The notes under the pieces: model-generated
What the model was told of the DNA's origin: nothing
Databases searched by the model: none
Seen by the model: only the letters and a program-made list of their open reading frames with translations
Shown: positions 4,760-23,232 of the stretch, one piece after another
How positions within the stretch are numbered: position 1 is the first letter of the stretch
Layout of the letters: every line of letters begins with the position of its first letter
Made by a program: the position numbers and the translations under genes
Virus record (IMG/VR): IMGVR_UViG_3300037502_001690
Span: 1 to 23,263 of that record
Length of the DNA: 23,263 nucleotides
Strand: one strand, 5' to 3'
Source of the DNA: a virus

Positions 4760-4870
4760 CCCCGCCCCCCGGTAAGGAGTCTCCTCAAACCGTTGGGGAA
4801 GCGGTGTTTGGGCGTCATTTGGTGTGAATCGGAGCGTTTCCTTATTCCTTGACAGGGAAACAGAGGAAAC
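4760..4870 (+). other. Intergenic leader before the packaging genes
   Basis: These 111 bases separate the accessory genes from the packaging operon and hold no gene. CAAACCG (4786-4792) pairs with CGG-TG-TTTG (4802-4810) as a bulged 7-bp hairpin without a T-run. GTTTCC (4836-4841) is complementary to GGAAAC (4856-4861, repeated at 4865-4870) and could fold over the SD-like AGAGG (4862-4866) of the small terminase gene. A late promoter would be expected here; I cannot point to a convincing -35/-10 pair. Confidence 0.4.
4848..4854 (+). promoter_or_regulatory. CTTGACA start-proximal motif (6/7 match)
   Basis: A near copy of the recurrent TTTGACA heptamer lies 16 nt before ATG 4871. As a -35 box it would place a -10 box on the start codon, so a role at translation initiation fits better. 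Confidence 0.4.
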
Positions 4871-5488
4871 ATGGCACTCACGCACAGGGCAATGGCCGCA
4901 GCCATCGGGCTGACGCCAGGACAAGTTTGCAAGCTCGCCAAAAAAGGGATGCCGCTGACCTCCGCAGAGGAGGCGGCGGCGTGGCGCCAGCGCCACATCG
5001 GCGGCAAGCCGGCTGCACGGCCCAAGGTGTCACGCCCGAAGCCTCAAGATGTGGACGAGGCCAAGGTCGAGGAGTTGGCCGACCTGCCATTTGAGCAGAT
5101 CACCAACACCGAGAATTGCCGCCACGCATTGCAAGAAAGCCGGGACGCGCGGCGCTTTGCGTGGAAGAAGGTCAAAGACCTCGATGCCGAGGGGGCGCTG
5201 GAAGACTCGCGCAAGTGGATGCAGACGCACCAGCAGATGCTTTTGCGCCAAAGCAACCTTGAGGAGCAGTTTCGCAACCTGATCGAACGCGATGGCGTGA
5301 CCATCTCTTACCCCGAGGCCGAGCACCGATACCGTGCCTATCTCCAAGACGTTCGCGCCATCTGCATGGCTATGCCCGCCGCAATGGCGGCAAAGGTAAA
5401 CCCATCCGACCCGCCGCACGCGCAGAAGATGCTGGAAGAATGGCGCAACGACGTTCTCTTCAAGACCCTTAACGCCAAAGGCGCATGA
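4871..5488 (+). CDS. Terminase small subunit (DNA packaging, Nu1-like), 205 aa
   Basis: Residues 1-42 form a winged-helix/HTH of the kind seen in lambda Nu1-type small terminases: AAAIGLTPGQVCKLAKKGMP, then a short loop and AAAWRQRHI. A Pro/Lys linker and a long helical region (about 75-150) follow, suited to oligomerisation. The subunit should recognise the phage packaging site and hand the DNA to the large subunit, encoded next with a 4-nt ATGA overlap. The start has AGAGG at 4862-4866 and a CTTGACA motif 16 nt upstream. Length is close to Nu1 (181 aa). Assignment combines HTH pattern and position. Confidence 0.75.
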   Translation: MALTHRAMAAAIGLTPGQVCKLAKKGMPLTSAEEAAAWRQRHIGGKPAARPKVSRPKPQDVDEAKVEELADLPFEQITNTENCRHALQESRDARRFAWKKVKDLDAEGALEDSRKWMQTHQQMLLRQSNLEEQFRNLIERDGVTISYPEAEHRYRAYLQDVRAICMAMPAAMAAKVNPSDPPHAQKMLEEWRNDVLFKTLNAKGA

Positions 5489-7269
5489 CGCTGCTCGACA
5501 AGCTGGAGCGGTCAATGGCCGACGTGTTCAGCCCGCCAGACGAGCGCAAGGTCTGGGAGTGGGCGCAGGACGAAATTGTGCTGACTCGCCGGCAGACCGA
5601 AAGCATCGGGCCGTATTCGACCCTGCTGACTCCTTACGTCCGCGAGCCGCTGGAGTCGTTCAGTGATCCTCGCACAACCGACCTTGTGCTTTGTTTCGGG
5701 ACTCAGACCAGCAAGACCACGATTTTAATGATCGGAGCCGCGTGGCGCATGGCTAACGATCCGGCGCCGACCATCTGGGTCATGCCATCCGAGCACATGG
5801 CAAGATCGTTTTCGGAAAACAGATGGCAACCGATGGTGGAGGACTGCGGCGTGCTGCGCGAACTCAAGCCAACCAACCCGCACCGCTTCAAAGCTCTGGA
5901 GCAGCAGTTCCGAGACGCCACCCTGACCTTCATCGGCTCCAACAGTCCGGCCAACTTGGCAAGCCGCCCGGCGGGTCTGCTGATCATGGACGAGACGGAC
6001 AAGTTTGCGCCGGCCACCGACCGCGAATCTTCTGCTGTGGCTCTGGCTGAAAACCGGACCAAGTCCTACACCAACGCCCTGCGCGTTAAGGCGAGCACGC
6101 CAACCACCCCCGACGGCGAAATCTGGACCGCGTTCCTTGCCGGGGACCAGAGGTATTATTTTGTCCCATGTCCACACTGCGGCGAGAAACAGCAGTTGGA
6201 GTTCCCGCAAGTGAAATGGGACAAAGAGGCCAAGCTCGACGGCAAGTGGAACGAGGACGCCGTGCGATCTTCGGCCTACTACGAGTGCGCGCATTGCCAG
6301 GGCAAAATCACCGACGGGCACAAGACGAGGATGCTGCGCGAGGGGGAATGGCGGGCGACCAATCTTGCTGCCTCGGCAGGGCGCCGCAGTTACCACCTCA
6401 ACTCACTCTACGCCCCGTGGCGATCATGCGGCTTTGGCGAACTAGCCGTCAAGTTTCTGCAAGGCAAGGACACGCCCGCCGACCTGCAAGACTTCAACAA
6501 CTCGACGCTCGCTATCCCCTACGCGCCGATTGACGTGAACGTGCGCGAGGACAAGGTGCGCGAGTGCCGCGACCCGTATTGCTCGTGGCAGCAGATCCCC
6601 CCGCATTGCCAAGGAGACAACCTTGCCTACCTGTTCCTCGGCGCGGACCCCGGCCAGCAGCAAACGCATTGGGTCGTATCTGCCGTGAGCACGACGGGCG
6701 AGATCACGCCGATTGACTGCGGCACCGTGCTTTCGCCCGAAGACCTTGTTCAATTTGTGCAGGAGGACAACCCGGCGCGGCTGGCCTACAAAGACGCGGC
6801 AGGCAACACGGTTCACATCACGCGAGGGTTGGTGGACTCCGGCTATCTGACCGAGCGGGTTTACAATGTCTGCTACTCGACGGCCCCGGTGCTGTGGCCG
6901 AGCAAGGGAAGCGAGGCCGCGTTCGGCAAAGATCCGGTGCGCTACACCCGCCTGCAATCGCCCGCAGGACTTGGGCTCTACACCTACATTGACCACGAGA
7001 TCAAAACGGAGTTCTACGACTGGAAGATCAACCGCCGCCGCGCGCCGTTGTTTCGGTTGCCGATGGACGCGCCCGAATCGCTCATCGCCGGATTGAGCGG
7101 CCAGCAACTTATCACCAAGCGCACGGTAGCCGGGACATCGCAGGCGTGGAAGAAACTGCCAAATGACCACTACGGCGATTGCTGCAAGTTGGCCGTGGTC
7201 GGTTGGCAAGTGCTCAAAGACCATTTTATCGGCCAACCAGAACCTTTGACAGCAGACGCCCAAGCATGA
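5485..7269 (+). CDS. Terminase large subunit, GpA family, 594 aa
   Basis: This is the ATP-driven packaging motor and nuclease of the lambda gpA type. The ATPase half has a Walker-A-like LCFGTQTSKTT (69-79), the family segment PSEHMARSF...NRW (101-114), Walker B with catalytic Glu in LLIMDE (165-170) and a coupling region near VKASTPT (201-207). Two CxxC pairs (CPHC 229-232, CAHC 268-271) suggest a zinc knuckle between the domains. The RNase-H-like nuclease begins near FLGADPG, with Asp388 the likely first metal ligand. Length is near that of lambda gpA (641 aa). It overlaps the small subunit upstream and the gpW-like gene downstream by 4 nt each. Confidence 0.93.
   Translation: MTLLDKLERSMADVFSPPDERKVWEWAQDEIVLTRRQTESIGPYSTLLTPYVREPLESFSDPRTTDLVLCFGTQTSKTTILMIGAAWRMANDPAPTIWVMPSEHMARSFSENRWQPMVEDCGVLRELKPTNPHRFKALEQQFRDATLTFIGSNSPANLASRPAGLLIMDETDKFAPATDRESSAVALAENRTKSYTNALRVKASTPTTPDGEIWTAFLAGDQRYYFVPCPHCGEKQQLEFPQVKWDKEAKLDGKWNEDAVRSSAYYECAHCQGKITDGHKTRMLREGEWRATNLAASAGRRSYHLNSLYAPWRSCGFGELAVKFLQGKDTPADLQDFNNSTLAIPYAPIDVNVREDKVRECRDPYCSWQQIPPHCQGDNLAYLFLGADPGQQQTHWVVSAVSTTGEITPIDCGTVLSPEDLVQFVQEDNPARLAYKDAAGNTVHITRGLVDSGYLTERVYNVCYSTAPVLWPSKGSEAAFGKDPVRYTRLQSPAGLGLYTYIDHEIKTEFYDWKINRRRAPLFRLPMDAPESLIAGLSGQQLITKRTVAGTSQAWKKLPNDHYGDCCKLAVVGWQVLKDHFIGQPEPLTADAQA
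7245..7251 (+). promoter_or_regulatory. TTTGACA start-proximal motif
   Basis: The motif lies within the last codons of the terminase gene (read as Leu-Thr), 14 nt before ATG 7266. No SD is visible at this start, so the motif may substitute for it. Confidence 0.5.
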
Positions 7270-7559
7270 CCTCCGAGTTGGCCGGCATCCGAAAATTCCT
7301 CAAACGCACCAAGACTCTGGCGCAGTTGCAGGAAATGGCGACGGCACTTTTTGCCATTGCCGACAGCGAGGTGGTCATCACTTCGACAGGGTTTGAAGGC
7401 GGCAGCGCCAGCGGCCAAGCCCGCAAGTATTCCAAGGGCGACATCCTCAACATCGTCGAGGATCTGATCGAAGACCTCGCCCCCTCCGCAGAGCCCGCCA
7501 AAGTCCGCAGCGCGGGCATGGTTTACGCCGATTGGTCCGAAGCGCCCGCCCGTCTGTGA
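7266..7559 (+). CDS. gpW-like head-tail connector (positional), 97 aa
   Basis: A small protein encoded between the large terminase and the portal, exactly where lambda carries gpW, which stabilises packaged DNA and forms part of the head-tail connector. The sequence has an N-terminal helix (ELAGIRKFLKRTKTLAQLQEM), a beta-like segment SEVVITSTGF and a helix around SKGDILNIVEDLIEDL, roughly the gpW arrangement, but it is longer than lambda gpW (68 aa). The frame is open upstream to 7179; ATG 7266 is preferred for its 4-nt overlap with the terminase stop and the TTTGACA 14 nt upstream. Confidence 0.6.
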   Translation: MTSELAGIRKFLKRTKTLAQLQEMATALFAIADSEVVITSTGFEGGSASGQARKYSKGDILNIVEDLIEDLAPSAEPAKVRSAGMVYADWSEAPARL

Positions 7560-7566
7560 TTTGACA
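7560..7566 (+). promoter_or_regulatory. TTTGACA start-proximal motif
   Basis: It begins immediately after the stop codon TGA (7557-7559) and lies 13 nt before the GTG start of the portal gene. The spacer has no clear SD. Confidence 0.5.
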
Positions 7567-7579
7567 GACCGCCGCAGGC

Positions 7580-9076
7580 GTGGCGGAAAATCAAACGAAA
7601 TCAAAGCGCGGAGGCGCACGCCCCGGAGCCGGTCGCCCGCGCAAGCCCGTTGCCAAGAATGCCGCCTACGAGGCCGGCGAACTTTACCAACCCGGCAGGA
7701 CGTTCATCTACCTGCCGACCGTCGAGCCGCGCAACGAGCTAACCAACGGCACGCGCATCAACATCATGCGGAAGGCGCGCTGGCTCTACAACAACGTGGG
7801 CCTTGCCGCCCGCGCGGTGGACGGTGTGGCGCGCTACGTTTGCGGGACGGGCATCATCCCCGCCGCCCGCACCTCGGACGAGGCATGGAACCGCCAGGCT
7901 GAAGAAATGTTTGAGGACACCGTGGGCCGCGAGGCGTTCGGGTTCGACGCCGGGGGGCAGGTCAATTTCTACGAGGCGCAAAGTTTCATCGTGCGCCATG
8001 TCGCCATCGACGGCGACTTTTTCGGGCAGTTCATCAAATCCGACAGCGGGCGCGCCTTGGTCCGTTTCATGGGAGCCGAGCAAGTCGGCAACGCCTCCAC
8101 GCCGCTGGCGCAAGACGAATGGCAAGACGGCGTGCGGACGGATCGTTACGGCAAACCGACGCAATACCGCATCCTTGGCAGCGCCGACGCGCAGCGGTTC
8201 ACGGATGTTTCCGCCGACGACATCCTGCATTTTCGCCGCCCTGTCCGCATCGGCTACACCCGCAGCCCGTCATGGTTGGCTCGCGCGGCCCTGCACCTGC
8301 ACGACATGGCCGACATCGTCAGCTACACCAAGCAGACGTTCAAACTGGCGAGCCAACCCGCGTTTATCATCGAGTCGCCGGATGCCATGAACATCGGCAT
8401 GGGCGCCGCGCTTAAAAAGCAGGACGCCTCCACGGGCTCCGTGACCCTCGACAAACTCTATTCGCAATCCGGCGTGGTGCAGTTGCCGCCCGGCAGCAAG
8501 TTGCAGCAGTTCAAAAACGAGCACCCCGGCAACAACTTTCAGCAGTTCCTTGATTTCCTTGCCCGCGATATCTCGTGGGGCATTGGCCTCTCGCCCGAAA
8601 TGCTGTGGTCGGTGGCCGGGATCGGCGGGGCAAATACGCGCTATGTGCTGGCCGACGCGCAGGTGTTTTTCTCCGAGTTGCAGGATTGGCTCATCAATCA
8701 GTTTTGCCGCCGCTACTGGAAGTATTGGGTTTGGTCTGAGATCCAAGCCGGTCGCCTGCCACTGCGCGACGATTGGTGGAGGGTGGATTTTATCCCGCCC
8801 GCCCGCGCCACGGTGGACTTTGGCCGCGACACGAAAGCATTGCTGGAAATCGTCCGCACCGGCGCGATGTCCACCCGACGCTTTGCCGAGATGCACGGAC
8901 TGGACGAGGAGGCCGAGGAAGATGCGGCGATTGCCGCCGCGCTTCGCCGCAAAGAAAAGTGCGAAGCGGCAGGCTTGAGCGTTACCGACGTGTTCCCGCC
9001 TGCGCCCGGCTCGCCCATTAACGCGCCAACGCCAGAAGAACCAGAAGCGCCAACGCCGCCGCCTGCCGACGTTTGA
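7580..9076 (+). CDS. Portal protein, lambda family (Phage_portal_2), 498 aa
   Basis: The dodecameric portal is the vertex through which DNA enters and leaves the capsid. Family-like segments include NNVGLAARAVDGVARYVCGTGI (about 70-91), VRHVAIDGDFFGQF (134-147), a wing/stem region with ADDILHFRRP (213-222) and DISWGIGLSPEMLWSV (about 330-345). Length matches lambda gpB (533 aa). The GTG start is supported by TTTGACA 13 nt upstream and the short gap to the previous stop. The N-terminus carries KRGGARPGAGRPRKP (residues 9-23), a basic Gly/Arg/Pro tail with a GRP core like an AT-hook, which is unusual for a portal. The C-terminus is Pro/Glu-rich. Confidence 0.9.
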   Translation: MAENQTKSKRGGARPGAGRPRKPVAKNAAYEAGELYQPGRTFIYLPTVEPRNELTNGTRINIMRKARWLYNNVGLAARAVDGVARYVCGTGIIPAARTSDEAWNRQAEEMFEDTVGREAFGFDAGGQVNFYEAQSFIVRHVAIDGDFFGQFIKSDSGRALVRFMGAEQVGNASTPLAQDEWQDGVRTDRYGKPTQYRILGSADAQRFTDVSADDILHFRRPVRIGYTRSPSWLARAALHLHDMADIVSYTKQTFKLASQPAFIIESPDAMNIGMGAALKKQDASTGSVTLDKLYSQSGVVQLPPGSKLQQFKNEHPGNNFQQFLDFLARDISWGIGLSPEMLWSVAGIGGANTRYVLADAQVFFSELQDWLINQFCRRYWKYWVWSEIQAGRLPLRDDWWRVDFIPPARATVDFGRDTKALLEIVRTGAMSTRRFAEMHGLDEEAEEDAAIAAALRRKEKCEAAGLSVTDVFPPAPGSPINAPTPEEPEAPTPPPADV

Positions 9077-9078
9077 CA
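9072..9078 (+). promoter_or_regulatory. TTTGACA start-proximal motif (contains the upstream stop)
   Basis: The TGA at 9074-9076, which ends the portal gene, is embedded in the heptamer. The motif is 13 nt before ATG 9092 and continues as TTTGACACCCG, shared with the copy at 21187. Confidence 0.5.
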
Positions 9079-9091
9079 CCCGCGAGGGTGC

Positions 9092-10138
9092 ATGGCCCAG
9101 AAGTGGTATGCGTTTAAAAACTCTTCCGACAAGAGCGGCGAGGTTGAGCTTTCTATCTACGACGAAATCGGTGCGTTTGGCATCGGCGCAAAAGAGTTCA
9201 TTGCAGAACTGCGCGAATACAAAGGCCAGCACGTCCACGTCCGCATCAACTCCCCCGGTGGAGAGATCATCGACGGAAGCGCCATTGCCAACGCGCTAAA
9301 CCGCCACGAAGGCGGAGTCACCGTCCACATCGACGGCCTTGCGGCATCAATGGCGAGCTACATCGCCATGTCGGGGAACCCGACTTACATGAGCGAAAAC
9401 GCACTGCTCATGATCCACAACCCGTGGACGCTGGCCGCAGGCGAAGCCGAAGACCTCCGCAAGCAAGCCGACCTGCTCGACACCATGAAGGCCACGCTGG
9501 TGCGCGGCTACCAGCGCAAGAGTGGGATGCCTGCTGAAGAGATCAGCAAGCTCATGGACGAGGAAACTTGGCTGACCGCTTTGGAAGCCACCGCCCTCGG
9601 CTTTGTCGATGCCATCGAAGACGGCATCCCGGCCGCCGCCAGTGCCAAGGATCTCCGCCGCAGATTTGACAGCTTCGCGCAGCGTATGGACGAAAAAAAT
9701 TCCGTCGCTACCGAAACCGAAGTCGCCGCGCCTGCGGTTGAAGCTGTGGTCGAGGAAGCGCCTGTCGCCGTCGAGGCCGAAGCGCCCGAAGTCAAAGAAG
9801 CCCCCGCCGCCGAAGAGGCCGCGCCGGAAGCCAAGGCTGACGATTCCGCCGAGAAGGTCGCCGCGCTGGAAGCCGAGAAGGCCGAGGCCATCGCCCGCGC
9901 CGAAGCTGCCGAGGCTGAACTTGCCAAGGTCAAAGAAGCCTTTGCTGCGCTGGAGAAATCCGCGGGCGTTTCCGCCGCTTCCGACACCCCCGCCGTCAAG
10001 GCTGAAGCCGCCGACCCCGTCGCGCAGTGGATGGCCGCAGTCGAGGCCAAGGACTACGCGACCGCCAACAAACTTTACGCCGAGCACAAGAAGGCCATCT
10101 GGGCCGCTCGCGCCTCACTTTCCAAGGCCACCAGCTAA
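9092..10138 (+). CDS. Head maturation protease (ClpP/S14-like) with C-terminal scaffold domain, 348 aa
   Basis: Residues 1-190 are a ClpP-fold serine protease that should cleave scaffold and portal or coat tails during prohead maturation. The oxyanion strand NSPGGEIIDGSAI (53-65), nucleophile Ser86 in DGLAASMASY (81-90), His109 in MIHNP (107-111) and a likely Asp156 in LMDEETW (154-160) match the family triad. From about 199 the sequence becomes an Ala/Glu/Lys-rich, coiled-coil-like tail typical of scaffolding. This is the lambda C/Nu3 arrangement. The start is backed by GAGG at 9084-9087 and TTTGACA 13 nt upstream. An internal ATG at 9686 probably produces the tail alone. Confidence 0.88.
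   Translation: MAQKWYAFKNSSDKSGEVELSIYDEIGAFGIGAKEFIAELREYKGQHVHVRINSPGGEIIDGSAIANALNRHEGGVTVHIDGLAASMASYIAMSGNPTYMSENALLMIHNPWTLAAGEAEDLRKQADLLDTMKATLVRGYQRKSGMPAEEISKLMDEETWLTALEATALGFVDAIEDGIPAAASAKDLRRRFDSFAQRMDEKNSVATETEVAAPAVEAVVEEAPVAVEAEAPEVKEAPAAEEAAPEAKADDSAEKVAALEAEKAEAIARAEAAEAELAKVKEAFAALEKSAGVSAASDTPAVKAEAADPVAQWMAAVEAKDYATANKLYAEHKKAIWAARASLSKATS
9665..9671 (+). promoter_or_regulatory. Internal TTTGACA motif before the nested scaffold start
   Basis: This copy is inside the protease gene, in frame as Phe-Asp-Ser, and lies 14 nt before an in-frame ATG (9686), the same spacing as at real gene starts. It is the best evidence that the motif marks initiation sites rather than stop codons. 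Confidence 0.5.
9686..10138 (+). CDS. Nested in-frame capsid scaffolding protein (Nu3-like), 150 aa
   Basis: Translation from the internal ATG at codon 199 of the protease gene would give a 150-residue protein made only of the scaffold domain: an acidic Ala/Glu/Val/Pro-rich region (residues 8-70 or so), a coiled-coil-like helix (KVAALEAEKAEAIARAEAAE), and a helical C-terminal coat-binding-like end. Lambda makes Nu3 in exactly this way from within gene C. The sequence support is the TTTGACA motif at the standard 14-nt distance; there is no clear SD. The capsid gene follows 44 nt later. Expression as a separate product is inference. Confidence 0.6.
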   Translation: MDEKNSVATETEVAAPAVEAVVEEAPVAVEAEAPEVKEAPAAEEAAPEAKADDSAEKVAALEAEKAEAIARAEAAEAELAKVKEAFAALEKSAGVSAASDTPAVKAEAADPVAQWMAAVEAKDYATANKLYAEHKKAIWAARASLSKATS

Positions 10139-10182
10139 GGAAAAACCAACAAACAACAAAACCAACCTAATCAACCAAAGAT
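10139..10182 (+). promoter_or_regulatory. CAA-rich, G-poor leader of the coat gene
   Basis: The 44-nt gap before the coat gene is almost free of G after its first bases and consists of AAC/CAA runs (AACCAACAAACAACAAAACC, continuing to the ATG). There is no SD and no TTTGACA. Such a leader should be unstructured and may itself promote ribosome loading on the most highly expressed gene. Confidence 0.5.
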
Positions 10183-11144: not shown

Positions 11145-12872
11145 GTGGCAAAAGTTCATCTCGGCATCATCTGCGGCAACGAAGCGGAAAACATCACCCG
11201 CTTCCTCAATAGCTTTCAGCCGCACGTTGATTCCGTCTCCGTAGTCCGCGCCTGCGGCAACCAGCCGCCCGACGCCACGCTGGACATCGCCAAAGAGCGC
11301 GGTTGCCTGACGGGCGAGTATGTGAACGCCGAGGCCGGCAAAGATTGGCCGCACGTGGACAGCTTCGCCGCTGCCCGCAACCAGAGCTTTGCCCTCGCAC
11401 CCGAAGGCGCCGACTGGCTCATGTGGGCCGATTGCGACGACCTGCTGACCCCCACGGGCGCGGAAGTCCTGCGGATGATACGGGAGGGACACCCGATGGA
11501 GGGTGACGCCATTTTTTCGCCTTACATCACCAACGCCAGCGGCAGCTACGCACGGCGCATACGCCTGGTCAAAGCCGCTGCGTTCAAGCAGTGGATCAAC
11601 GCCGTCCACGAGGACATCGAAACGCGCGAGGGCACGGAAAATTCATGGTGCGCGGAATTGCAGGTCATGCATATGCCGCAGACCAACAAGCGCGGCAGCG
11701 TCACCCGCAACCGCAATATCTTGGAAAGCATCCCGCCCGAAAAGCGCACGGGCCGCGAATGGTGGTTCCTGTTCCGCGAGTGCGAGATTCAGCAGGACAT
11801 TCCGACCGCCATGCACGCCGCCGTCATCGCCACGGGCCGCGATGATTTGGGCGACGAAGAAAAGTATGTGGCCTACATGACCATTGGCCGCTGGCTCAAA
11901 GACGTGGACGAGGCCGAGCGCCCCTTGCTGGAAGCCGTGCGCCTGATGCCGCACCGCCGAGAAGGCTATGCCGAGCTTGCCAAGCTGCATCTGGCGCGCG
12001 GCAAAGCCACCAAGGCGCTGGCCTACGCGAACGCTATGGAGGCCCAGCCCATGCCCGACGAACCAAGCTGGACGCACGACGCCTCGCTCTACGGCTGGCG
12101 GGCGCATGATTTGAAGACCCTGGCCCTTGCCAAAGCCGGCCACACCAAGGGAGCAGAGCGTCTGCGGAAAGAATGGCTCAAACGGCTCAGGCCCCGCATT
12201 GCCGTGGGCCACCCGGCGGGCAGGGGAGCCAAGGACATCGAGGTCCGCGACCTGTGGTTGAGTCGTGCCGCGCACCCGGAACGAGTGGCCTACTATTTCG
12301 GCATCTGCGAGTCGGACAAGGAGGTGGTCGAGCAGTTGCAGCACTACCCGCACGGGCTGGCTGCCGCCGTTCCCGAAGGCCACAGCAGCGCCGTGGCCAA
12401 CTACAACGCCGCCGCCCGCGCGGCCACCGCATCGGGCGCGCGCATCTTCATCATGGCGCAGTCGGACGTTTACCCGCCCCATGGATGGGACGAGCAGGTG
12501 ATCCAAGCCATGAAGCCGCACATGGACAAGCCTACGGTCTTGCACGTTTCCGACGGCTTTCGTGGCCCGACGGACCCGCTGATGACCATCATGTGCTTTA
12601 ACTGGCGCTGGTGGCTGGGGCGCGAGTGGTTGCTGTGCCCGGAATACGACGGCTATTGGTCGGACACCGAGTTTTCCTTCCGCGCCTACCGCGACGGGGT
12701 GGTGCAGGACGGGCGCCACATTAAGTTTTACCACGACCACCCGGCATTCACCGGCGCGGCCTCCGACGAGGTGTATATGCGCCAGCAAAACCCGGAAGCC
12801 AACGAGCGCGGCAAAGCCATCTTCTGCCGACGCAACCCCGACGCCGTAGCCAAAGGCTGGGCCAAACTTTGA
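11145..12872 (+). CDS. Two-domain glycosyltransferase with TPR-like linker, 575 aa
   Basis: The N-terminal ~200 residues are a GT-A, family-2-like glycosyltransferase: start KVHLGIICGNEAENITRFL and a metal-binding DxD-type ADCDD (95-99). A helical, TPR-like segment (about 205-345) follows, then a second GT-A-like domain (about 348-575) with AQSDVYPPHGW (Asp441 possible metal ligand) and WWLGREWLLCPEYDGYWSD. It should transfer a sugar from an activated donor; the acceptor is unknown. It sits between coat and connector genes, an unusual site, 5 nt after a terminator. The start is a GTG with no SD or TTTGACA motif. Related multi-domain enzymes decorate surface polymers or virion proteins; which applies here is not shown. 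Confidence 0.8.
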   Translation: MAKVHLGIICGNEAENITRFLNSFQPHVDSVSVVRACGNQPPDATLDIAKERGCLTGEYVNAEAGKDWPHVDSFAAARNQSFALAPEGADWLMWADCDDLLTPTGAEVLRMIREGHPMEGDAIFSPYITNASGSYARRIRLVKAAAFKQWINAVHEDIETREGTENSWCAELQVMHMPQTNKRGSVTRNRNILESIPPEKRTGREWWFLFRECEIQQDIPTAMHAAVIATGRDDLGDEEKYVAYMTIGRWLKDVDEAERPLLEAVRLMPHRREGYAELAKLHLARGKATKALAYANAMEAQPMPDEPSWTHDASLYGWRAHDLKTLALAKAGHTKGAERLRKEWLKRLRPRIAVGHPAGRGAKDIEVRDLWLSRAAHPERVAYYFGICESDKEVVEQLQHYPHGLAAAVPEGHSSAVANYNAAARAATASGARIFIMAQSDVYPPHGWDEQVIQAMKPHMDKPTVLHVSDGFRGPTDPLMTIMCFNWRWWLGREWLLCPEYDGYWSDTEFSFRAYRDGVVQDGRHIKFYHDHPAFTGAASDEVYMRQQNPEANERGKAIFCRRNPDAVAKGWAKL

Positions 12873-12874
12873 CA
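12868..12874 (+). promoter_or_regulatory. TTTGACA start-proximal motif (contains the upstream stop)
   Basis: The glycosyltransferase stop TGA (12870-12872) lies within the heptamer, 14 nt before ATG 12889. Confidence 0.5.
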
Positions 12875-13224: not shown

Positions 13225-13634
13225 ACCCTCTGGAAGTAGAAAAGGGCGTGGCAGCTTACCTGCGCGCGTTAAACACCCTTCCCGCAGGCACGCAGGTCCA
13301 CGAGTCCGTGAGCGCCGAGGACTTGGACTTTGAAAAGCAGGCCGTCGTCGTCGAGGTGAGCGATAGCGAGCACCGGGGGCCAGGCGCGTTTTTGGTCAAC
13401 CTCACCGTCAGTCTGCGCTCGCCGTCGATGGCCGTCAGCCTATCCGAGCACAGCACGCTTTTCGGCATCCTTGTCACCGCCATCGAGGCGCAAAGCGCCT
13501 TCCGCACCGCCTTTGATGCCGCCGCCACGGGCGTGGATTTTGCGGGCAGCTACATCACCGCCGTGCCGGGGCCGTCTTTTGAGGACCGCGCGTGGATCAA
13601 TTCCATGCAAGTGGCCCTTGGCGTGGCCGTTTGA
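13221..13634 (+). CDS. Tail terminator protein (gpU-like, positional), 137 aa
   Basis: The gene follows the FII-like connector and precedes the tail tube genes, the place of lambda U or Z. The protein shows an N-terminal helix (NPLEVEKGVAAYLRAL), alternating strands and a C-terminal strand WINSMQVALGVAV, as in tail terminators, which cap the tube and set its length with the tape measure. A longer frame begins at 13197, but GTG 13221 overlaps the previous stop (GTGA) and has GGAGG at 13206-13210. No sequence signature allows a firmer family call. Confidence 0.55.
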   Translation: MNPLEVEKGVAAYLRALNTLPAGTQVHESVSAEDLDFEKQAVVVEVSDSEHRGPGAFLVNLTVSLRSPSMAVSLSEHSTLFGILVTAIEAQSAFRTAFDAAATGVDFAGSYITAVPGPSFEDRAWINSMQVALGVAV

Positions 13635-13636
13635 CA
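13630..13636 (+). promoter_or_regulatory. TTTGACA start-proximal motif (contains the upstream stop)
   Basis: The stop TGA (13632-13634) is embedded; the motif is 14 nt before ATG 13651 and continues as TTTGACACCC. Confidence 0.5.
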
Positions 13637-13650: not shown

Positions 13651-13752
13651 ATGAGCGAAGCCGCGAAACCGCAGCCCAAGCCGCAAGCCGCGCCGAGTGG
13701 CCCGCGTGGCGCAATGGTTGAGGCCCGCCTCGCCAAGAAAGCCAAGAAATAG
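13651..13752 (+). CDS. 33-aa Lys/Pro/Ala-rich mini-protein
   Basis: A very short gene whose reality rests on its context: TTTGACA 14 nt upstream, GGAG at 13643-13646, an ATG start and a stop 2 nt before the tail tube gene. The peptide is basic (MSEAAKPQPKPQAAPSGPRG, then VEARLAKKAKK) and likely disordered. Function unknown; a small tail-assembly or nucleic-acid-binding peptide is possible. Confidence 0.45.
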   Translation: MSEAAKPQPKPQAAPSGPRGAMVEARLAKKAKK

Positions 13753-13754: not shown

Positions 13755-14069
13755 ATGCCCTCCATCGGAATCACCAGCACCGACATTGCCGAGCCGTCCA
13801 ACTCCACAACCGAGGAGTTCACGACCGACACTTCCCTTGAAGTCGCCACCATCCGCGACAAGACGGGCGTGACCAAGCACGTGCAAAAGCTCGGTTATTC
13901 CACGACCAACTTTACCCGGCGCGGACGCGGGGCAGGCGACTTGAGCGGCGTGGCCGCTGGAGCCATCAGCGAAGGCACCGCCAAAATCATTTCCGTTTCC
14001 AACACGCAAACAGCGGACGATTTCCCCTCCTACGAAATCAGCGCCGTGCAGAAAGACGACCTCCCTTAA
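13755..14069 (+). CDS. Putative tail tube protein A, 104 aa
   Basis: A Ser/Thr-rich, beta-type protein in the position of lambda V. It resembles the next gene product: SLEVATIRDKTG, RRGRGAGDLSG, and the end SVSNTQTADDFPSYEIS align with SLEELHISEKDG, VNGRGDFPTLDV and SLSITERNEDYPDWTFT. I therefore read the two as diverged duplicates, probably tail tube or tube-associated proteins. There is no SD; the stop of the 33-aa gene lies 2 nt before the ATG. Exact role is inferred from position only. Confidence 0.55.
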   Translation: MPSIGITSTDIAEPSNSTTEEFTTDTSLEVATIRDKTGVTKHVQKLGYSTTNFTRRGRGAGDLSGVAAGAISEGTAKIISVSNTQTADDFPSYEISAVQKDDLP

Positions 14070-14408: not shown

Positions 14409-14855
14409 ATGCAGGTCCGAGTGGTCAAATCGAGGGACGATCAGCCTCTCTCTTCCTTGGAAGGCGCGTCTTGTGTTGCCGCGCTGACGGCGGGCTACCG
14501 CCTCATTGACGGCAAGCAGATCAAGAATTTCGAGGATTACGTCGAAGACACCGGCACAGGCGAACTGATCCGCGAAACCGTGTGGGTCTTCGATGACACC
14601 GTGACGGCCGACTTTGGCGACGAGCGCTTGCCGCTGGAGGCGTTCCTTGCCAAGTTCCGCGACTTGGAGTGGTGCCAAGCCAACCCGTCACACCCGATTG
14701 CCTACCTGCGCCACCAGCACGAAAACCTGTCCAAGTTCCGCGACCACTTCCGCAAGCATCGTCCGATGATCCTGCTCCGCAAGGGCAAGCGCACGCTGAA
14801 GATCCGCCCGGATTTGACTCCTGAAGACAAAGCAAAATGGCTCAAACTACTTTGA
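14409..14855 (+). CDS. Hypothetical tail-region protein, 148 aa
   Basis: Not recognised. The N-terminal half is mixed (QVRVVKSRDDQPLSSLEGASC) and the C-terminal half is helical and basic with several His (YLRHQHENLSKFRDHFRKHR) and a closing helix PEDKAKWLKLL. The last 19 nt overlap the start of the tail chaperone gene. Located between tail tube and G/GT genes, it may be a tail-assembly factor. The ATG has no SD; the 10-nt gap and absence of another frame support the gene. Confidence 0.55.
   Translation: MQVRVVKSRDDQPLSSLEGASCVAALTAGYRLIDGKQIKNFEDYVEDTGTGELIRETVWVFDDTVTADFGDERLPLEAFLAKFRDLEWCQANPSHPIAYLRHQHENLSKFRDHFRKHRPMILLRKGKRTLKIRPDLTPEDKAKWLKLL
14813..14819 (+). promoter_or_regulatory. 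TTTGACT start-proximal motif (6/7 match)
   Basis: A near copy of TTTGACA lies 17 nt before ATG 14837, inside the end of the previous gene. Confidence 0.3.
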
Positions 14856-15256
14856 CCGAAGAGGCGTTCCTTGAACCAAGTCTCAAGGAGATTGGAGACT
14901 TCAAGCTGCGGCCCTTCACGCTCGGCAGCGTCACGCTGTGCAAGAAGCTCGGTCTGTCGCAGTTCACGGGCGAGAAGTCCGACGAGCCGATGGATCAGGT
15001 CGAGCAACTGCGCCAGGTCGCGGGCTTCCTGTTTATCCACTGCGAACCCGTCGAAAAAGTCCTGCGCGCCGTCCGCGACAAGCAGCACTTGGAGGACGAG
15101 TTGCTGCGCTACCAGTTGCAAATCCCGCTCTCCATCGTGCCGCAGGTCATGGAGGAGATTCAGCGCGTGGGCGACATGACCGGCGCGGCCTCCGTGGAGA
15201 TCGTCGAAAAGCCCGCTGCGCCGGGCGCATCCCAAGCCGCACCGCCGGGAAACTGA
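14837..15256 (+). CDS. Tail assembly chaperone, G-like, 139 aa
   Basis: This gene has the size and position of lambda G (140 aa), whose product binds the tape measure and is needed for tail assembly but is absent from virions. The protein is acidic and helical (GEKSDEPMDQVEQLRQVAGFLF; IPLSIVPQVMEEIQRVGDM). Its final codons, ccG GGA AAC TGA, are a slippery heptamer directly before the stop, as used in many phages to make a G-T fusion. The ATG overlaps the previous gene by 19 nt and has a TTTGACT motif 17 nt upstream. Confidence 0.8.
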   Translation: MAQTTLTEEAFLEPSLKEIGDFKLRPFTLGSVTLCKKLGLSQFTGEKSDEPMDQVEQLRQVAGFLFIHCEPVEKVLRAVRDKQHLEDELLRYQLQIPLSIVPQVMEEIQRVGDMTGAASVEIVEKPAAPGASQAAPPGN

Positions 15257-15483
15257 CCGAGCCAACGTGGATTGCGACCTTCGCGTTCACGTTGGCGCGA
15301 GAAACCGGATGGTCTGAACATTACATCATCTGGGAACTGCCGCTCGCCCGACTCCTGCAATACCAGCACTGCGCCCTGCGGGCCAATGACGTGTGGACCG
15401 TCCCGCCGGGCCCTCCGACAGGGGAGACGGTGGACGCCTTTGAGCGGATGGCGGCTTTGACAGAGATGTTTTCAGCAGAATGA
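14837..15483 (+). CDS. Tail assembly chaperone fusion, GT-like, made by -1 frameshift (215 aa)
   Basis: If ribosomes slip back one base on G_GGA_AAC (15247-15253), translation continues with LTEPTWIATFAFTLARETGW to the stop at 15481-15483, adding 76 residues to the 139 of the short form. The extension frame has no ATG, GTG or TTG of its own between the junction and this coding-like stretch, so frameshifting is the simplest way to express it. The T-like part, with YIIWELPLARLLQYQHCAL, resembles the helical extensions of chaperones that bind the tail tube protein. Its stop overlaps the next start (ATGA). Confidence 0.75.
15247..15296 (+). promoter_or_regulatory. -1 programmed ribosomal frameshift signal
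   Basis: The slippery heptamer GGGAAAC (15247-15253) is in the correct X_XXY_YYZ phase, with the stop codon directly after it. After a 7-nt spacer, GCCAACGTG (15261-15269) pairs perfectly with CACGTTGGC (15288-15296). The loop contains a second small stem, GCGA/TCGC (15274-15277 / 15281-15284). Heptamer, spacer and stem match known phage and retroviral signals; lambda uses GGGAAAG. Confidence 0.8.
15456..15462 (+). promoter_or_regulatory. TTTGACA start-proximal motif
   Basis: It lies in the end of the GT frame (read as Leu-Thr), 17 nt before ATG 15480. The start has no SD. Confidence 0.45.
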
Positions 15484-18420: not shown

Positions 18421-18423
18421 GCC

Positions 18424-19053: not shown

Positions 19054-21191
19054 TTTCATGGACCGAAACAGCACCGTTTGCCGAGGCCTCCCAAAGTTAC
19101 AGCTTTTCTGAGTCTTACTCGTCGGAATACACCACTTGGCTTTTCGGAGGAACCGAGCCCTACCAAGATGAAACTTGGTCTGGTTCTGGTGGCGCGACTA
19201 TTTCCTCTGGAATCGACGGCGCTGGAGAAAGCACTTACAGCAAGGTCGAATCTGCTTGCAGCTATGTTGCTCAAATTCTGCGAAACCAAACCCTGACAGG
19301 AATTGTTGCAACGAGTCGCGAAACCCAGCGCACCGAACGGCGGACCAGCAATGTAGACTTTGGCTCTACCACAGAAGTTGTCGGAAGCATACTGGGGTCA
19401 ACAAGCAACAACTGGAATTTCAGAACGCAGTTTGGTGAGCAAACATTTTTCCAAGGCGTCACAGACTTGGCGGCAAATATTATTTCTACGTTCACGCCGA
19501 CAACTTTGACCTGCCAGACAACCACCGTTACGACCGTTGGCAATGTTCTAAAAACAACAACCCAAACCGACGCGGCAAGAAGCACGACAGGAACAACAGT
19601 CTCTTCGACCACTTCTCAAAAAGGCTCGGCATTTCAAACCCTGACCGGGACGTTCCCAAGAACAACGACAGCAACGCGCACCAAGCTCAGTGTTTACGCG
19701 GACTCGGCATCTACAACCCGGACAACATCCACCACCTACAACGGGGGGCGAACCGGGGTGTTGTTCGGCCAGTCGGTTACGCTGAGCGTTCCTCACAAGA
19801 AAATCACCAAATACTTGCTGACAAGGAACGAAGATGTCTGGCAATTTACGACGACATCGGCGGGCTTGGCCAACCTTTCGCAGGTTGCTTCCAAGCTACC
19901 AACATCGGGAAGCGTTCAAGAGAAAACCGAATTGGCCTCAGTGTTTGCCACAACACTGCCGTGGGAAATTGTCACTATCGACGGCGGTGAATACCTAACG
20001 CAACAAGCCGCAAGTTGGGATCAGGTTACCTTTACGTCAACCTACTCCTTGTGGAAGACGGAAACATCAACGCTTACTTCTTGGGCGCTGGCCAGCAATG
20101 CCGCTTTTGGGAATCGGTTGGGTCTGCCCGCGACCTCTTTCACATATACGCAGACCTACCAGCGCCAGACGACATCAACCAGTGAAGCGGTCTCATCTTC
20201 GTTTGTCAGCGGGCTGTCTCAAAGCTCGTTTGCCACAACCACCCAAAGCATTGGCGCTTTTAGCCGCGGGCAAAGTTATTCGACGGAATACCCAACCACG
20301 ACCACCGTCAGCGCCGATGTCCCGGTGGCCATCGTCGGCTCGTCATCTTATTCCGGCTTTGGCGGATTTACACAATTAACAATTACCAACGGGGTCACGA
20401 CCACCACCATCGGAGCCGATGTTAGCACCGAAATAAATTCAACCTATGTATCCACCGAAGCCCGCGCTTCAAATGTGATAAAGACGCAACTGTTTTACCA
20501 ACTCACGGGCGGCCAGGTGTCGGTCAACGAAACGTCATTTGCCGACGGGTGGGCTGCGCCGAACGCGCCAAGCGATGTTGCCTTTCTTGTGAGCGCGGCG
20601 GGGGTCAGCTTCCCCTTGAATGCCATCTTTTCGTGGCAGAAGCCTGCCGATTTGCTCAGTGCGCGACCGAGGATAAACGTCCCGACACTGACCTCCAGTT
20701 CCAGATCCGATCAGAACGGCAGCACAACTTTTTCAGTGTGGGGCGGCGGAGTCACCACCCGCAGCCAAGGATCGGCGTCGGACGCGCAGGCTGTCAGTTC
20801 TTCGGGCGCATGGGTAACAGTGGGCCAAGCCGCAACCTCTCAAAACCCGTTTGCTTTTGATCCTTTGGCTCCGACGCAAACAGTGGTCGAAGGGGCAAAT
20901 ACGCTTTCGAGATACGGCGGCATACCGGCAGAGGGGTCCGAGGTGTCGGCCATCCTGCCGCCGGGGCGCTACTGGACAGCAACGGGATCGTCTACGGGGA
21001 CCACCAATGTAACAACAACGACGGCTGTTGGCGGCACCGGCCAAACTGCGGCAATGTTTCTTCCTCAGATTGCCCATAGCGAACTTGCCACAGGATCACC
21101 CATGGCGGCCAGATATTCCGTCGTTCCCGCAGCGCCGTATCCCTCGGCTTCGTTTTTTGAGTCGTGGAACGGAAGCGCACTCGGCCTTTGA
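19050..21191 (+). CDS. Large Ser/Thr-rich fibre-like protein, probable receptor-binding structure, 713 aa
   Basis: A 713-residue protein extremely rich in Ser and Thr with very few Lys or Cys: runs such as TTTTVSADVPVAIVGSSSYS and many short Thr clusters. The composition, lack of long helices and position after tail tip genes fit an extended beta-structured fibre or adhesin-like tail protein, although no trimerisation or chaperone domain is evident. The DNA is somewhat less GC-rich than the head genes. Such Ser/Thr density would offer many O-glycosylation sites, and a glycosyltransferase-like gene follows directly. Receptor binding is inferred, not shown. Confidence 0.6.
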   Translation: MISWTETAPFAEASQSYSFSESYSSEYTTWLFGGTEPYQDETWSGSGGATISSGIDGAGESTYSKVESACSYVAQILRNQTLTGIVATSRETQRTERRTSNVDFGSTTEVVGSILGSTSNNWNFRTQFGEQTFFQGVTDLAANIISTFTPTTLTCQTTTVTTVGNVLKTTTQTDAARSTTGTTVSSTTSQKGSAFQTLTGTFPRTTTATRTKLSVYADSASTTRTTSTTYNGGRTGVLFGQSVTLSVPHKKITKYLLTRNEDVWQFTTTSAGLANLSQVASKLPTSGSVQEKTELASVFATTLPWEIVTIDGGEYLTQQAASWDQVTFTSTYSLWKTETSTLTSWALASNAAFGNRLGLPATSFTYTQTYQRQTTSTSEAVSSSFVSGLSQSSFATTTQSIGAFSRGQSYSTEYPTTTTVSADVPVAIVGSSSYSGFGGFTQLTITNGVTTTTIGADVSTEINSTYVSTEARASNVIKTQLFYQLTGGQVSVNETSFADGWAAPNAPSDVAFLVSAAGVSFPLNAIFSWQKPADLLSARPRINVPTLTSSSRSDQNGSTTFSVWGGGVTTRSQGSASDAQAVSSSGAWVTVGQAATSQNPFAFDPLAPTQTVVEGANTLSRYGGIPAEGSEVSAILPPGRYWTATGSSTGTTNVTTTTAVGGTGQTAAMFLPQIAHSELATGSPMAARYSVVPAAPYPSASFFESWNGSALGL

Positions 21192-21193
21192 CA
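21187..21193 (+). promoter_or_regulatory. TTTGACA start-proximal motif (contains the upstream stop)
   Basis: The fibre gene's TGA (21189-21191) is embedded; the motif continues as TTTGACACCCGC and lies 16 nt before GTG 21210, which has no SD. Confidence 0.5.
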
Positions 21194-21209
21194 CCCGCCG
21201 CGCTGCCGA

Positions 21210-22241
21210 GTGCTGGCCATAGCGACATACGCGACCAAGAGCTATTTCTTTTGCTGGCCGCAATTTCTGCGCCGGATCGCCGCTGCAGCCGGGCACCATG
21301 CCGAGGCGCATTTCATTCTGGCGACTGACCAGAGCAAGGAGGCCAAGGACGCCATCGAGGCGGCGCGGCACGAGCTTCCCGAGGGGTGGCGCATCCAAGC
21401 CGTGCAACTGCCGCTGGAGGACGGCGGGGCCGAGGGCAAGGACTACCAAGTGGAGGCCCAAATGCGGATTGCCGCGTTGCAAGGGGCCGCGTTTGCCGCC
21501 GCCCGCAAGATCCGCGCGACGGCCCTGTGGAGCGTGGAAGCCGACAACCTTGTCCCGGCTGACGCGCTGCGGGTGGCTGAGTGGGCACTGCAAATGCCGC
21601 AGGCGGACGGGTCGCCGTATTACGAGGTCGCCGCCGTGACTTATCCGAATGGTCTTTTTCTCGGCGGCAACGGGACGCCCCAAAACCCCATCGCCGAGGA
21701 CTTCACCGAAAAGGAGCGCAAGCTACCGCCGCGCCTCGTCCGCGCCTTGGAAGCCTGCCGCGAGCGGCTGAAGGCCGAGCCGACCAGCGAGCGCGAAGGC
21801 AAGCGCCTTGGCCGATTGCATGAGCGGGTGAAGAAGTGCCCGCCGGATGGCAACATTTGGGAAATTACTGCCAAGCACGGATGGCGGCGGCGCGGATGGA
21901 TGGACTTCGCGTATCCCGGTATTGGTCGCGGGGCCATCGTCCCGTCCGATTGGTGCGGCCTCGGCTGCACGCTGCTCTCGGCCAAGGCGTTGGCGCTGGC
22001 TGAGTTTAGTGGCTACGACGGACGCGGCACGCAAGACCTGTTCCTGTGCTGGCACCGCTGGCACCCGGCAGGGCTGCGGATCGCCTGCATTCCGCACACG
22101 GCGGCGGACCACGTGAAGCGCAAGGGCAAGGACGCACCCGCCGATGCGCCCGACATCATCCATTATCGAGCCTACCACGAAACCGAGGGCGAATACCGGG
22201 GCCACCTCCGCGTCCGGCAACAACCTTGGATGCCATGTTAG
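21210..22241 (+). CDS. Putative GT-A-fold glycosyltransferase, 343 aa
   Basis: The layout is that of a GT-A nucleotide-sugar transferase: a first strand LAIATYATKSYFFCWPQFL, a second strand HFILATD (34-40), the DxD-like acidic site ALWSVEADNLVPADAL (105-120) where E110-A-D112 would bind the metal and donor, and a C-terminal acceptor-side segment VPSDWCGLGCTLLSAKAL (about 244-261) followed by FSGYDGRGTQDLFLCW. I cannot name a CAZy family. The GTG start is chosen for the TTTGACA upstream and because no ATG precedes it. It overlaps the RmlC-like gene by 7 nt, so the pair is co-translated. Confidence 0.6.
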   Translation: MLAIATYATKSYFFCWPQFLRRIAAAAGHHAEAHFILATDQSKEAKDAIEAARHELPEGWRIQAVQLPLEDGGAEGKDYQVEAQMRIAALQGAAFAAARKIRATALWSVEADNLVPADALRVAEWALQMPQADGSPYYEVAAVTYPNGLFLGGNGTPQNPIAEDFTEKERKLPPRLVRALEACRERLKAEPTSEREGKRLGRLHERVKKCPPDGNIWEITAKHGWRRRGWMDFAYPGIGRGAIVPSDWCGLGCTLLSAKALALAEFSGYDGRGTQDLFLCWHRWHPAGLRIACIPHTAADHVKRKGKDAPADAPDIIHYRAYHETEGEYRGHLRVRQQPWMPC

Positions 22242-22663
22242 CCACCCTCCGCCCACTGACCGCGCACCTCGACGAGCGCGGACGCCTGACCGAGATCTTC
22301 CGCGCCTCGGATGACGCGCATGGCTTTGGCCAGTGCTATATCACCACCTGCGCGGCGGGGGTGGTCAAAGCCTGGCACCGCCACCGGCTGCAAGTGGATC
22401 GGTGGTATTGCGTAGCAGGGGCGGCCAAAGTGGGCATCTGGGACGCCGAGGCAATGCGCGGGCAGACGGTGATCCTTTCTGCCGACACGCCGCAGCTTCT
22501 CACCATCCCGGCAGGCTTGTTCCACGGCTTCACGCCATGTCACGGCCACCGGGAGGCGGCGATTCTTAACATCCCGTCCCGCGAATACGATGCGGCCAAC
22601 CCCGACGAGGAGCGTCGGGGGCCATGGGCCTTCCCGTTTCGGTGGGATGCAGAGAGCCGCTGA
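22235..22663 (+). CDS. RmlC-like sugar 3,5-epimerase (cupin), 142 aa
   Basis: A cupin of the dTDP-4-dehydrorhamnose 3,5-epimerase family. GVVKAWHRHRLQVDRW (42-57) matches the strand with the catalytic His (His48), KVGIWD (65-70) the following strand, LLTIPAGLFHGF (88-99) the family's IPPGxAHGF motif, and EERRGPWAF the end pattern. These enzymes epimerise C3/C5 of TDP-4-keto sugars on the way to rhamnose. Length is shorter than canonical RmlC (about 180 aa), closer to compact phage and bacterial relatives. The ATG overlaps the previous stop; a longer frame from 22046 is a shadow of the glycosyltransferase gene. Confidence 0.78.
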   Translation: MLATLRPLTAHLDERGRLTEIFRASDDAHGFGQCYITTCAAGVVKAWHRHRLQVDRWYCVAGAAKVGIWDAEAMRGQTVILSADTPQLLTIPAGLFHGFTPCHGHREAAILNIPSREYDAANPDEERRGPWAFPFRWDAESR

Positions 22664-22666
22664 CAC

Positions 22667-22673
22667 TTTGACA
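22667..22673 (+). promoter_or_regulatory. TTTGACA start-proximal motif
   Basis: It stands free in the intergenic gap, 3 nt after the upstream stop TGA (22661-22663) and 19 nt before ATG 22693, the longest spacing in the set; GAGGG lies between. Confidence 0.45.
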
Positions 22674-22692
22674 CAGGGGCGAGGGCAAGGCC

Positions 22693-23232
22693 ATGCGCGT
22701 CTATATCAACCTCGACACCAACGAGCCCGTCGTCTCGCCTGTTTTAACGCAGCGGGTCAACACGTTCTTTTTTGTCCGCCGCGATGTGGTGCCGGTAGAA
22801 GTGCAGTTTGTCCGCAACGGGGCCGTTGTGGAGCTTGGCGCGGGTGCCACCGGGGCCATCGGCCTGAAAAAAACCTACACAGGCAGCTTTCTCGCCAACG
22901 ATTCGGGCTGGACGAAAAGCGGTAGCGGCACCAGCACGATCTATCAGTTCGACCTTAACCTTAACACCACCGAACTGGACGCGGAGTTTAACCCGGACGC
23001 CTCGACGGATTCGGTCACGTGCAAGCTCGAAGTGTCTTGGTCGGTCAGCGGCACCACCTCAAGCATCCTGCCAACCAGCAGCATCATTTACAACGATGTG
23101 ATTCGCGGCACCGAGGGCAGTCCCAATTTCGCAACCGTCATGTCGCAGTTCGACATCAAATCACCCGACAACTCCACCTGGCGCGTCACCATCGACAACG
23201 ACGGCATCCTCTCCGCCGCCAAGCAACCCTAA
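22693..23232 (+). CDS. Putative tail fibre / baseplate-type structural protein, 179 aa
   Basis: Beta-rich protein with no recognised family. It opens MRVYINLDTNEPVVSP and continues with RVNTFFFVRRDVVPVEVQFVRNGAVVELG (about 24-52), which resembles the N-terminal beta module of baseplate-upper or fibre proteins that handle an input strand followed by a repeated beta sheet. Ser/Thr/Asn-rich segments (YTGSFLANDSGWTKSGSGTS; SWSVSGTTSSILPTSS) follow. GAGGG and AAGG precede the ATG. Position at the end of the tail module supports a fibre-type role. Confidence 0.55.
   Translation: MRVYINLDTNEPVVSPVLTQRVNTFFFVRRDVVPVEVQFVRNGAVVELGAGATGAIGLKKTYTGSFLANDSGWTKSGSGTSTIYQFDLNLNTTELDAEFNPDASTDSVTCKLEVSWSVSGTTSSILPTSSIIYNDVIRGTEGSPNFATVMSQFDIKSPDNSTWRVTIDNDGILSAAKQP

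Follow-up and report, generated by a model that had tools for sequence, protein, structure and literature searches.

A strict TTGACA motif 13–17 nt upstream of late-gene start codons in a segment of viral DNA and its relatives

RESULTS

TTTGACA copies in the window and their counterparts in relatives

The window, i.e. the whole 23,263-nucleotide stretch of viral DNA analysed here, contains the exact heptamer TTTGACA ten times on the plus strand and never on the minus strand. Nine of these copies are linked to start codons, with gaps of 14, 13, 13, 14, 14, 14, 17, 16 and 19 nt, just as the first-pass annotation had read them; the tenth lies at 3594. The sites are listed below in map order, together with two near copies picked out earlier and one nested product.

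3594..3600, + strand: TTTGACA just within an early gene; no ATG or GTG at 12–19 nt
4848..4854, + strand: CTTGACA, 16 nt before ATG 4871 of the small terminase subunit gene (TerS by PHROG 57)
7245..7251, + strand: TTTGACA, 14 nt before ATG 7266 of a 97-aa connector-position gene; within the end of terL
7560..7566, + strand: TTTGACA, 13 nt before GTG 7580 (portal)
9072..9078, + strand: TTTGACA, 13 nt before ATG 9092 (ClpP-type head protease); the portal gene stops at the TGA of the motif
9665..9671, + strand: TTTGACA, 14 nt before ATG 9686, a start internal to the protease gene and in frame with it
9686..10138, + strand: C-terminal in-frame scaffold-like product of 150 aa, assigned by position (Nu3-like)
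12868..12874, + strand: TTTGACA, 14 nt before ATG 12889 (head-closure/attachment protein)
13630..13636, + strand: TTTGACA, 14 nt before ATG 13651 of a 33-aa ORF just 5′ of the tail gene at 13755
14813..14819, + strand: TTTGACT, near copy
15456..15462, + strand: TTTGACA, 17 nt before ATG 15480 of a 212-aa tail-region gene; within the overlapping upstream frame 14938–15483
21187..21193, + strand: TTTGACA, 16 nt before GTG 21210 of a 343-aa gene; its TGA is the upstream stop
22667..22673, + strand: TTTGACA, 19 nt before ATG 22693, beyond the usual 13–17 nt

The suspected excess over chance is borne out by dinucleotide shuffling: none of 100 shuffled sequences reached ten copies (mean 2.39, largest 8, both strands counted).

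We compared the window with two sets of environmental phage loci, one fetched by terminase and one by protease. The site at 7245 recurs with an unchanged gap in those close relatives that reach the region. The TerS-position genes of relatives G002, G004 and G005 carry (A/G)TTGACA at a gap of 14–15 nt, the homologue of the 21187 site in G002 and G004 is CTTGACA at a gap of 16 nt before GTG, and that of the 22667 site in G002 has a gap of 20 nt. At the counterparts of 13630 in G002 and L008 the motif stands immediately 5′ of the tail gene, the 33-aa ORF being extra in the window. The copy at 3594 is probably due to chance.

The conserved core is the hexamer TTGACA

In the terminase set (773 kb), TTTGACA occurs 174 times in the forward and 10 times in the reverse orientation; in the protease set (77 loci), TTGACA occurs 440 times forward and 19 times reverse, and the start-associated copies number 327 versus 1. 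Unbiased ranking of the 7-mers located 5′ of called starts in the relatives, the kind of motif discovery proposed at the outset, placed TTTGACA at the top in both subgroups, with 14/34 copies (p = 4e-17) and 57/88 copies (p = 2e-74), p values that are optimistic because the rows include near-copies.

The heptamer itself had to be shortened. TTGACA is start-associated, that is, located 13–17 nt 5′ of ATG or GTG, in 74 of 105 independent contexts (70%), and each of its 18 one-base variants in 0–15%. A T precedes the hexamer in 82/123 independent contexts, so that the core comprises six nucleotides and the leading T is a preference. Since CTTGACA contains the full core, the near copy at 4848 is a true member, while the one at 14813 is probably due to chance, because TTTGACT is not enriched (start-associated in 2/28 among relatives). 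Apart from the base 5′ of the core and the start codon, flanking information is near zero in the 123 contexts, the conserved signal being limited to six bases plus the T preference. TTTAACA, examined for a NusB/S10 boxA (CUCUUUAACA-type core), is start-associated in 1/23, and we rejected this candidate. A reading as polar DNA elements was contradicted.

A seed-like length and a location just 5′ of the Shine-Dalgarno (SD) position would suit base-pairing with a small RNA or with an unusual segment of the host 16S rRNA (complement UGUCAA), but TTGGCA, TTGATA and TTGACG, which wobble pairing would tolerate, show background or near-background levels of start association, and the 16S rRNA of E. coli lacks UGUCAA; we regard such a pairing site as very unlikely. 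An antisense RNA encoded by the phage itself was rejected: in the near-complete records G005, G006 and G009, TTTGACA is absent from the opposite strand and all same-strand copies lie at starts, so that no full 7-nt complement encoded by the phage is seen in these three records.

The narrowness of the conserved signal also argues against an L5-type stoperator, a phage repressor site that halts transcription elongation. The one-strand distribution, oriented with transcription, fits such a site, and the stoperator core TGTCAA, contained in the L5 site, is the reverse complement of TTGACA. However, we see a 6-nt core with no wider 13-bp consensus, fixed spacing to start codons, sites placed in coding sequence at internal starts, and a phage-integrase family in just 1/15 records, some of which may be partial. 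A stoperator function is thus highly improbable.

Spacing to the start codon is constrained regardless of frame, stop and gene family

Across the 123 independent contexts the gap to the start codon was 13 nt in 32 cases, 14 in 40, 15 in 19, 16 in 21 and 17 in 11. When no gap range was preset and we counted independent contexts followed by an ATG with an open frame of ≥50 aa, 57 of 67 fell at 13–17 nt and none at 9–12 or 18 nt. Nor is the motif equally common away from starts in relatives, a possibility that could have undone the original claim: in the terminase set, 149 TTTGACA copies have an ATG at 13–17 nt and none have one at 9–12 nt. The distance stays constant though the flanks diverge, also across non-homologous genes, and the orientation goes with the gene: the opposite-strand metallophosphoesterase gene of G002 and G004 has TTTGACA 14–15 nt 5′ of its GTG.

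The link to start codons holds, as initially proposed, irrespective of frame and stop context, and it extends across gene families. Coupling to the upstream stop, which had been among the suggested roles, did not hold, as the distance to the stop is variable and starts nested in open frames bear the motif. Accordingly, we rejected stop-coupled reinitiation: of 38 contexts in which a long frame precedes the motif, 13 have the motif's TGA as the stop of that frame, and in the remaining ones the stop lies from 10 to hundreds of nucleotides away.

The nested starts are most evident in the protease genes. Fourteen of 15 ClpP-type protease ORFs have the motif at an internal start, and the 15th is truncated before the site. 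The motif is kept there at a gap of 14 or 17 nt, though the third residue varies between S, T, N and K (its codon always begins with A). Other protease-position genes, in G005, G006 and G016, likewise carry it at the internal scaffold start, and the protease/scaffold gene of L193 has three nested in-frame starts with a common stop and motifs at 5981, 6575 and 6695. The 150-aa scaffold-like product of the window had no convincing family match.

A constant distance to the start codon could also arise if a sequence-specific endoribonuclease cut late mRNA at UUGACA to give short leaders of fixed length. The short, exact, single-strand motif with no preference for flanks or structure is in line with this; by prediction, the motif is no more single-stranded than with shuffled flanks. 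Such processing leaves the 13–17 nt spacing unexplained unless short leaders matter, and we consider it distinctly unlikely.

The motif marks late genes, with and without Shine-Dalgarno sequences

With starts called by a simple gene caller, the motif is present at 36/281 late starts versus 1/199 other starts. The late genes that bear it include those for the small terminase, connector, portal and protease (the last also at the internal scaffold start), as well as tail genes and a small holin-like gene. It is missing from the gene for the major head protein, which is probably expressed more strongly than any other late gene.

An earlier suggestion was that the motif goes together with missing SD sequences. 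In the window, SD sequences indeed precede the early genes and are scarce at the late ones; the lack of an SD is, however, not peculiar to motif-bearing genes. An SD is likewise missing from late genes that have no motif, which means that the motif is not required for SD-less initiation, and in several relatives motif and SD stand together, e.g. at L041 5522 and L033 9502.

The motif is common to a large group of environmental phages that probably infect Verrucomicrobiota, a phylum that includes SD-scarce species (PMC10783764). Phages whose terminases are only 24–29% identical to that of the window carry it too, as would be expected if host genes themselves used TTGACA at this spacing and the phages followed their host. 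Against such a host-wide signal, initiation at the window's early genes relies on SD sequences instead, and the start-linked motif is absent from the Akkermansia phages L019 and L092 and from the Verrucomicrobiota phage P8625 (L155); we give this explanation little credence.

The motif is not accompanied by a −10 box

The hexamer TTGACA is that of the sigma-70 −35 box, a resemblance noted at the outset along with the misplacement of any −10 box. No −10-like signal was detected 16–18 nt 3′ of the hexamer in either 50 or 123 independent contexts, in which the start codon itself lies at 13–17 nt, and in the GC-rich clade there is no AT-rich melting region. Since the −10 box is missing and would have to lie at or beyond the start codon, a sigma-70 promoter is unlikely, and we rejected it.

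A phage-modified RNA polymerase might instead read TTGACA as the sole promoter element, starting transcription about 6–8 nt 3′, whereby the short-leader mRNAs would need no SD. T4 offers an analogy, its late promoters being limited to a −10-like box. The identity of the core with the −35 consensus, the intolerance of wobble that protein–DNA reading would predict, the confinement to late genes and the promoter-like TTGACA-N30-ATG arrangement found four times in P8625 all speak for a late promoter. Conversely, transcription offers no rationale for the strict upper bound of 17 nt; in the GC-rich clade the spacer has a GC content of 61%, equal to the genome value, making a poor melting region; successive genes each have their own motif, nested internal starts included; a normal −10 box, had there been one, would again coincide with or follow the start codon; and no sigma region 4 domain scored above cut-off in 14 records. 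On balance, we judge a late promoter unlikely.

DISCUSSION

In this study we have described a sequence element with a strict six-base core, strand specificity, a spacing of 13–17 nt to start codons, restriction to late genes and independence of frame, stop and gene family. Since it matches neither an ordinary ribosome-binding site nor an ordinary promoter, it looks like a hitherto unrecognised start signal for late proteins. In our estimate there is about an even chance that it works in mRNA, occupying roughly −23 to −14, by promoting or regulating the initiation of late-gene translation, with a protein or the ribosome as its reader.

According to this proposal, TTGACA (usually TTTGACA) would be a cis-acting element of late mRNA just 5′ of the SD position, its core lying between roughly −23 and −14, as set by the gap to the start codon, and would promote or regulate initiation for a subset of late genes. 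We infer that it acts as RNA. The reader may be a sequence-specific protein that assists in placing the ribosome on SD-poor starts: a late factor of the phage, or a host protein associated with the 30S subunit at the mRNA exit side. Phage bS21, sought as a candidate, was absent in 18 records. More tentatively, UUGACA could constitute an SD-independent, sequence-specific late signal with a dedicated protein reader, bringing about an early-to-late switch via ribosome recruitment. Several observations speak against a role in translation initiation: some SD-less late genes do without the motif, the major head protein gene is among the genes lacking it, and its predicted accessibility does not exceed that of shuffled controls. 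If the element does act as RNA, the identity of its core with the sigma-70 −35 consensus is an odd coincidence.

Like the SD sequence, TTGACA is a short element whose distance to the start is constrained; it differs in that it is not complementary to CCUCC, as computed duplex energies show, and sits 5′ of the SD position at about 5–9 nt. T4-type late promoters are single short elements with an AT-only −10 box, not known to be fixed at 13–17 nt from starts. TTGACA resembles them in being a short single element before late genes that may sit in coding sequence, but its sequence differs and it is held at 13–17 nt.

The closest precedent is provided by the Start Associated Sequences (SAS) that cluster K mycobacteriophages carry and that have similar counterparts in Microbacterium phages of cluster EF. 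SAS are short asymmetric repeats in one orientation, tied to many starts and sometimes holding the upstream stop; their mechanism is unexplained (PMC3203893, PMC7302621). TTGACA shares with them the single orientation and the link to many gene starts (327 forward versus 1 reverse). SAS are 13 bp long, contain AGGAG, occupy the SD position at 3–7 bp from the start, and precede non-structural genes, mostly with an upstream gap of >50 bp (PMC3203893). By contrast, TTGACA has a 6-nt core 13–17 nt before the start without AGGAG or SD and marks late virion genes that overlap or abut. The stoperators of cluster A (L5-type) phages are also asymmetric, oriented with transcription and present in many copies per genome (PMC9283540, PMC6550527). 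These 13-bp sites lie in short intergenic spaces, are bound by the repressor of the temperate phage and, unlike TTGACA, are not described as spaced from start codons.

While start-associated phage motifs were known earlier, without a mechanism, our search of the open-access literature (subscription journals and most preprints lay outside its scope) found no earlier description of a TTGACA start motif. The element is short, strict and very widespread, follows a precise spacing rule and is present even at nested internal starts, which makes the question testable with simple reporters. Should it recruit ribosomes, it would represent a non-SD initiation signal in a phylum that includes SD-scarce species, as well as a new means by which phages keep early and late expression apart. 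The motif would also aid the calling of gene starts in these phage genomes.

Results

TTTGACA copies in a probable Verrucomicrobiota phage

The window is a 23.3 kb virus record (61% GC) whose early segment encodes an AAA ATPase and is followed by a lambda-type late module. Its features are:

Late module: small terminase (PHROG 57), GpA-type large terminase, portal, ClpP-type protease, major head protein, head closure, tape measure
4202-4759: 185-aa protein directly 5' of the small terminase gene, without Pfam match; by position, a candidate late regulator
11145-12872: 575-aa protein resembling a glycosyltransferase by eye; its gene interrupts the head module, with the major head protein gene on one side and the head-closure gene on the other
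13651-13752: 33-aa ORF that separates the motif from the tail gene at 13755
14837-15256 and 14938-15483: overlapping frames between tail genes that look like a tail-chaperone frameshift pair of the lambda G/GT type

The ClpP-type protease gene contains an in-frame internal scaffold start. Homologues of the 575-aa protein are found in most near-complete relatives, among which a ~177-aa family, apparently including the 185-aa protein, also recurs. The top annotated match of the terminase is an Akkermansia phage (39%). The protease is most similar to that of Verrucomicrobia phage P8625 (53%), which is also the one phage that the head protein matches; together these point to a Verrucomicrobiota bacterium as the probable host. 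Some Verrucomicrobiota are reported to have few genes led by a Shine-Dalgarno (SD) sequence (PMC10783764).

The nine exact TTTGACA copies that the first-pass annotation had placed before start codons, and the gaps to those codons, were all correct on recheck. TTTGACA occurs ten times on the plus strand and never on the minus strand, against a mean of 2.39 on both strands of the shuffled window, and none of 100 shuffles reached ten. The hexamer TTGACA is found 11 times on the plus strand and once on the minus strand; since 22 of 100 shuffles reach this total, the count alone is uninformative, and the hexamer signal lies in strand bias and placement.

The motif recurs at a fixed distance in related phages

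In 13 close relatives the motif is present at homologous junctions, with gaps identical or codon-shifted. A wider terminase search left 80 loci, mostly new (43-61% GC); across this set (773 kb) TTTGACA occurs 174 times forward and 10 times in reverse, and its gaps to ATG are 13 (50 cases), 14 (44), 15 (18), 16 (21) and 17 nt (16). As per-locus counts include related phages, the reliable figures are those for independent contexts, i.e. after similar surroundings are merged. The distance holds when flanking bases diverge, a check proposed earlier: a start lies 13-19 nt 3' of the motif in 50 of 56 independent contexts, with flanks unconserved. In the terminase tree, 75 of the 84 rows that form the environmental clade have the motif, while both Akkermansia-type records (L019, L092) lack it.

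A second set was gathered by protease instead of terminase; a few of its loci are the same contigs, and many members have terminases just 24-29% identical to that of the window. Here TTGACA occurs 440 times forward and 19 times in reverse; 327 forward copies, against one reverse, stand 13-17 nt ahead of a start whose frame runs for at least 45 aa. After merging, it is start-associated in 74 of 105 contexts. The core is TTGACA, since all 18 one-base variants are only 0-15% start-associated, near their own reverse-strand background. T precedes it in 82 of 123 contexts, with no further conserved base.

The motif is bound to the start codon

Coupling to the upstream stop, one of the readings first offered, fails: only 13 of 38 contexts have the stop within the motif, the others having it at different positions. 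The motif is bound to the start codon instead, and precedes internal in-frame starts in different kinds of protease gene. In the environmental locus L193, three nested in-frame starts of one protease/scaffold gene, with a common stop as calculated from ORF lengths, have motifs at 5981, 6575 and 6695 (gaps of 14, 14 and 17 nt), suggesting two scaffold products; L189, L196, L206 and L211 have a similar arrangement. Within the ClpP-type gene the motif is conserved at the nucleotide level while the third residue varies between S, T, N and K, its codon always beginning with A. Motif strand follows the gene: in records G002 and G004, an oppositely transcribed metallophosphoesterase has TTTGACA 14-15 nt before its GTG. 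The metallophosphoesterase (PF00149) at L138:5428-6168, read in the direction opposite to the late genes, has its own TTTGACA before GTG and a homologue in G004. Across nine near-complete records, with crude gene calls and G003 under-called, the motif stands at 36 of 281 late starts versus 1 of 199 others. A 33-aa ORF also stands at the corresponding motif of G004, while in G002 and L008 no ORF separates the motif from the tail gene.

Relation to Shine-Dalgarno sequences

The contrast drawn earlier between SD-led early and SD-poor late genes is borne out in the window, where SD pairing is strong at 8 of 10 early starts and mostly weak at late ones; a lack of SD special to motif starts is not, since motif-less late starts are weak too. 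Over all loci, pairing at or below -5 kcal/mol is found at 26% of motif starts versus 19% of other called starts. Because motif starts are not SD-poorer, and some relatives have both elements, the SD immediately 3' of the motif, the motif sits 5' of the SD position and is no simple substitute for it.

Possible modes of action

The evidence is all drawn from sequence. The strict six-base rule and hard 13-17 nt spacing fit recognition by a protein, which would read the motif in concert with a ribosome placed on the start codon. Action through RNA base pairing is improbable, as wobble-compatible variants are not enriched, although short pairings commonly avoid wobble. An RNA-processing site is only slightly less improbable. 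An ordinary promoter was rejected: as the first-pass annotation had objected, the -10 element would fall on or inside the start codon, and none is seen. A single-element late promoter producing short leaders is unlikely, though less so than processing or pairing; in the GC-rich clade the spacer is as GC-rich as the genome, which counts against either kind of promoter.

P8625 (L155) offers an example of how a promoter might appear in such a phage. TTGACA lies exactly 30 nt 5' of ATG at four sites (5412, 10736, 15558 and 22406), the spacing expected of a promoter with transcription starting at or near the ATG; by their appearance these sites could be operators or could drive leaderless late mRNAs. 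Three of the four have a GTATC...GATAC-like inverted repeat just 5' of the start.

The nearest known counterpart of the motif is the Start Associated Sequences (SAS) of cluster K and EF actinophages, which are likewise unexplained (PMC3203893, PMC7302621). Since it differs in position, SD content and gene class, three of the features that define SAS, the motif is not a member, yet it would work at a comparable place. With stoperators it has only orientation in common (PMC9283540, PMC6550527).
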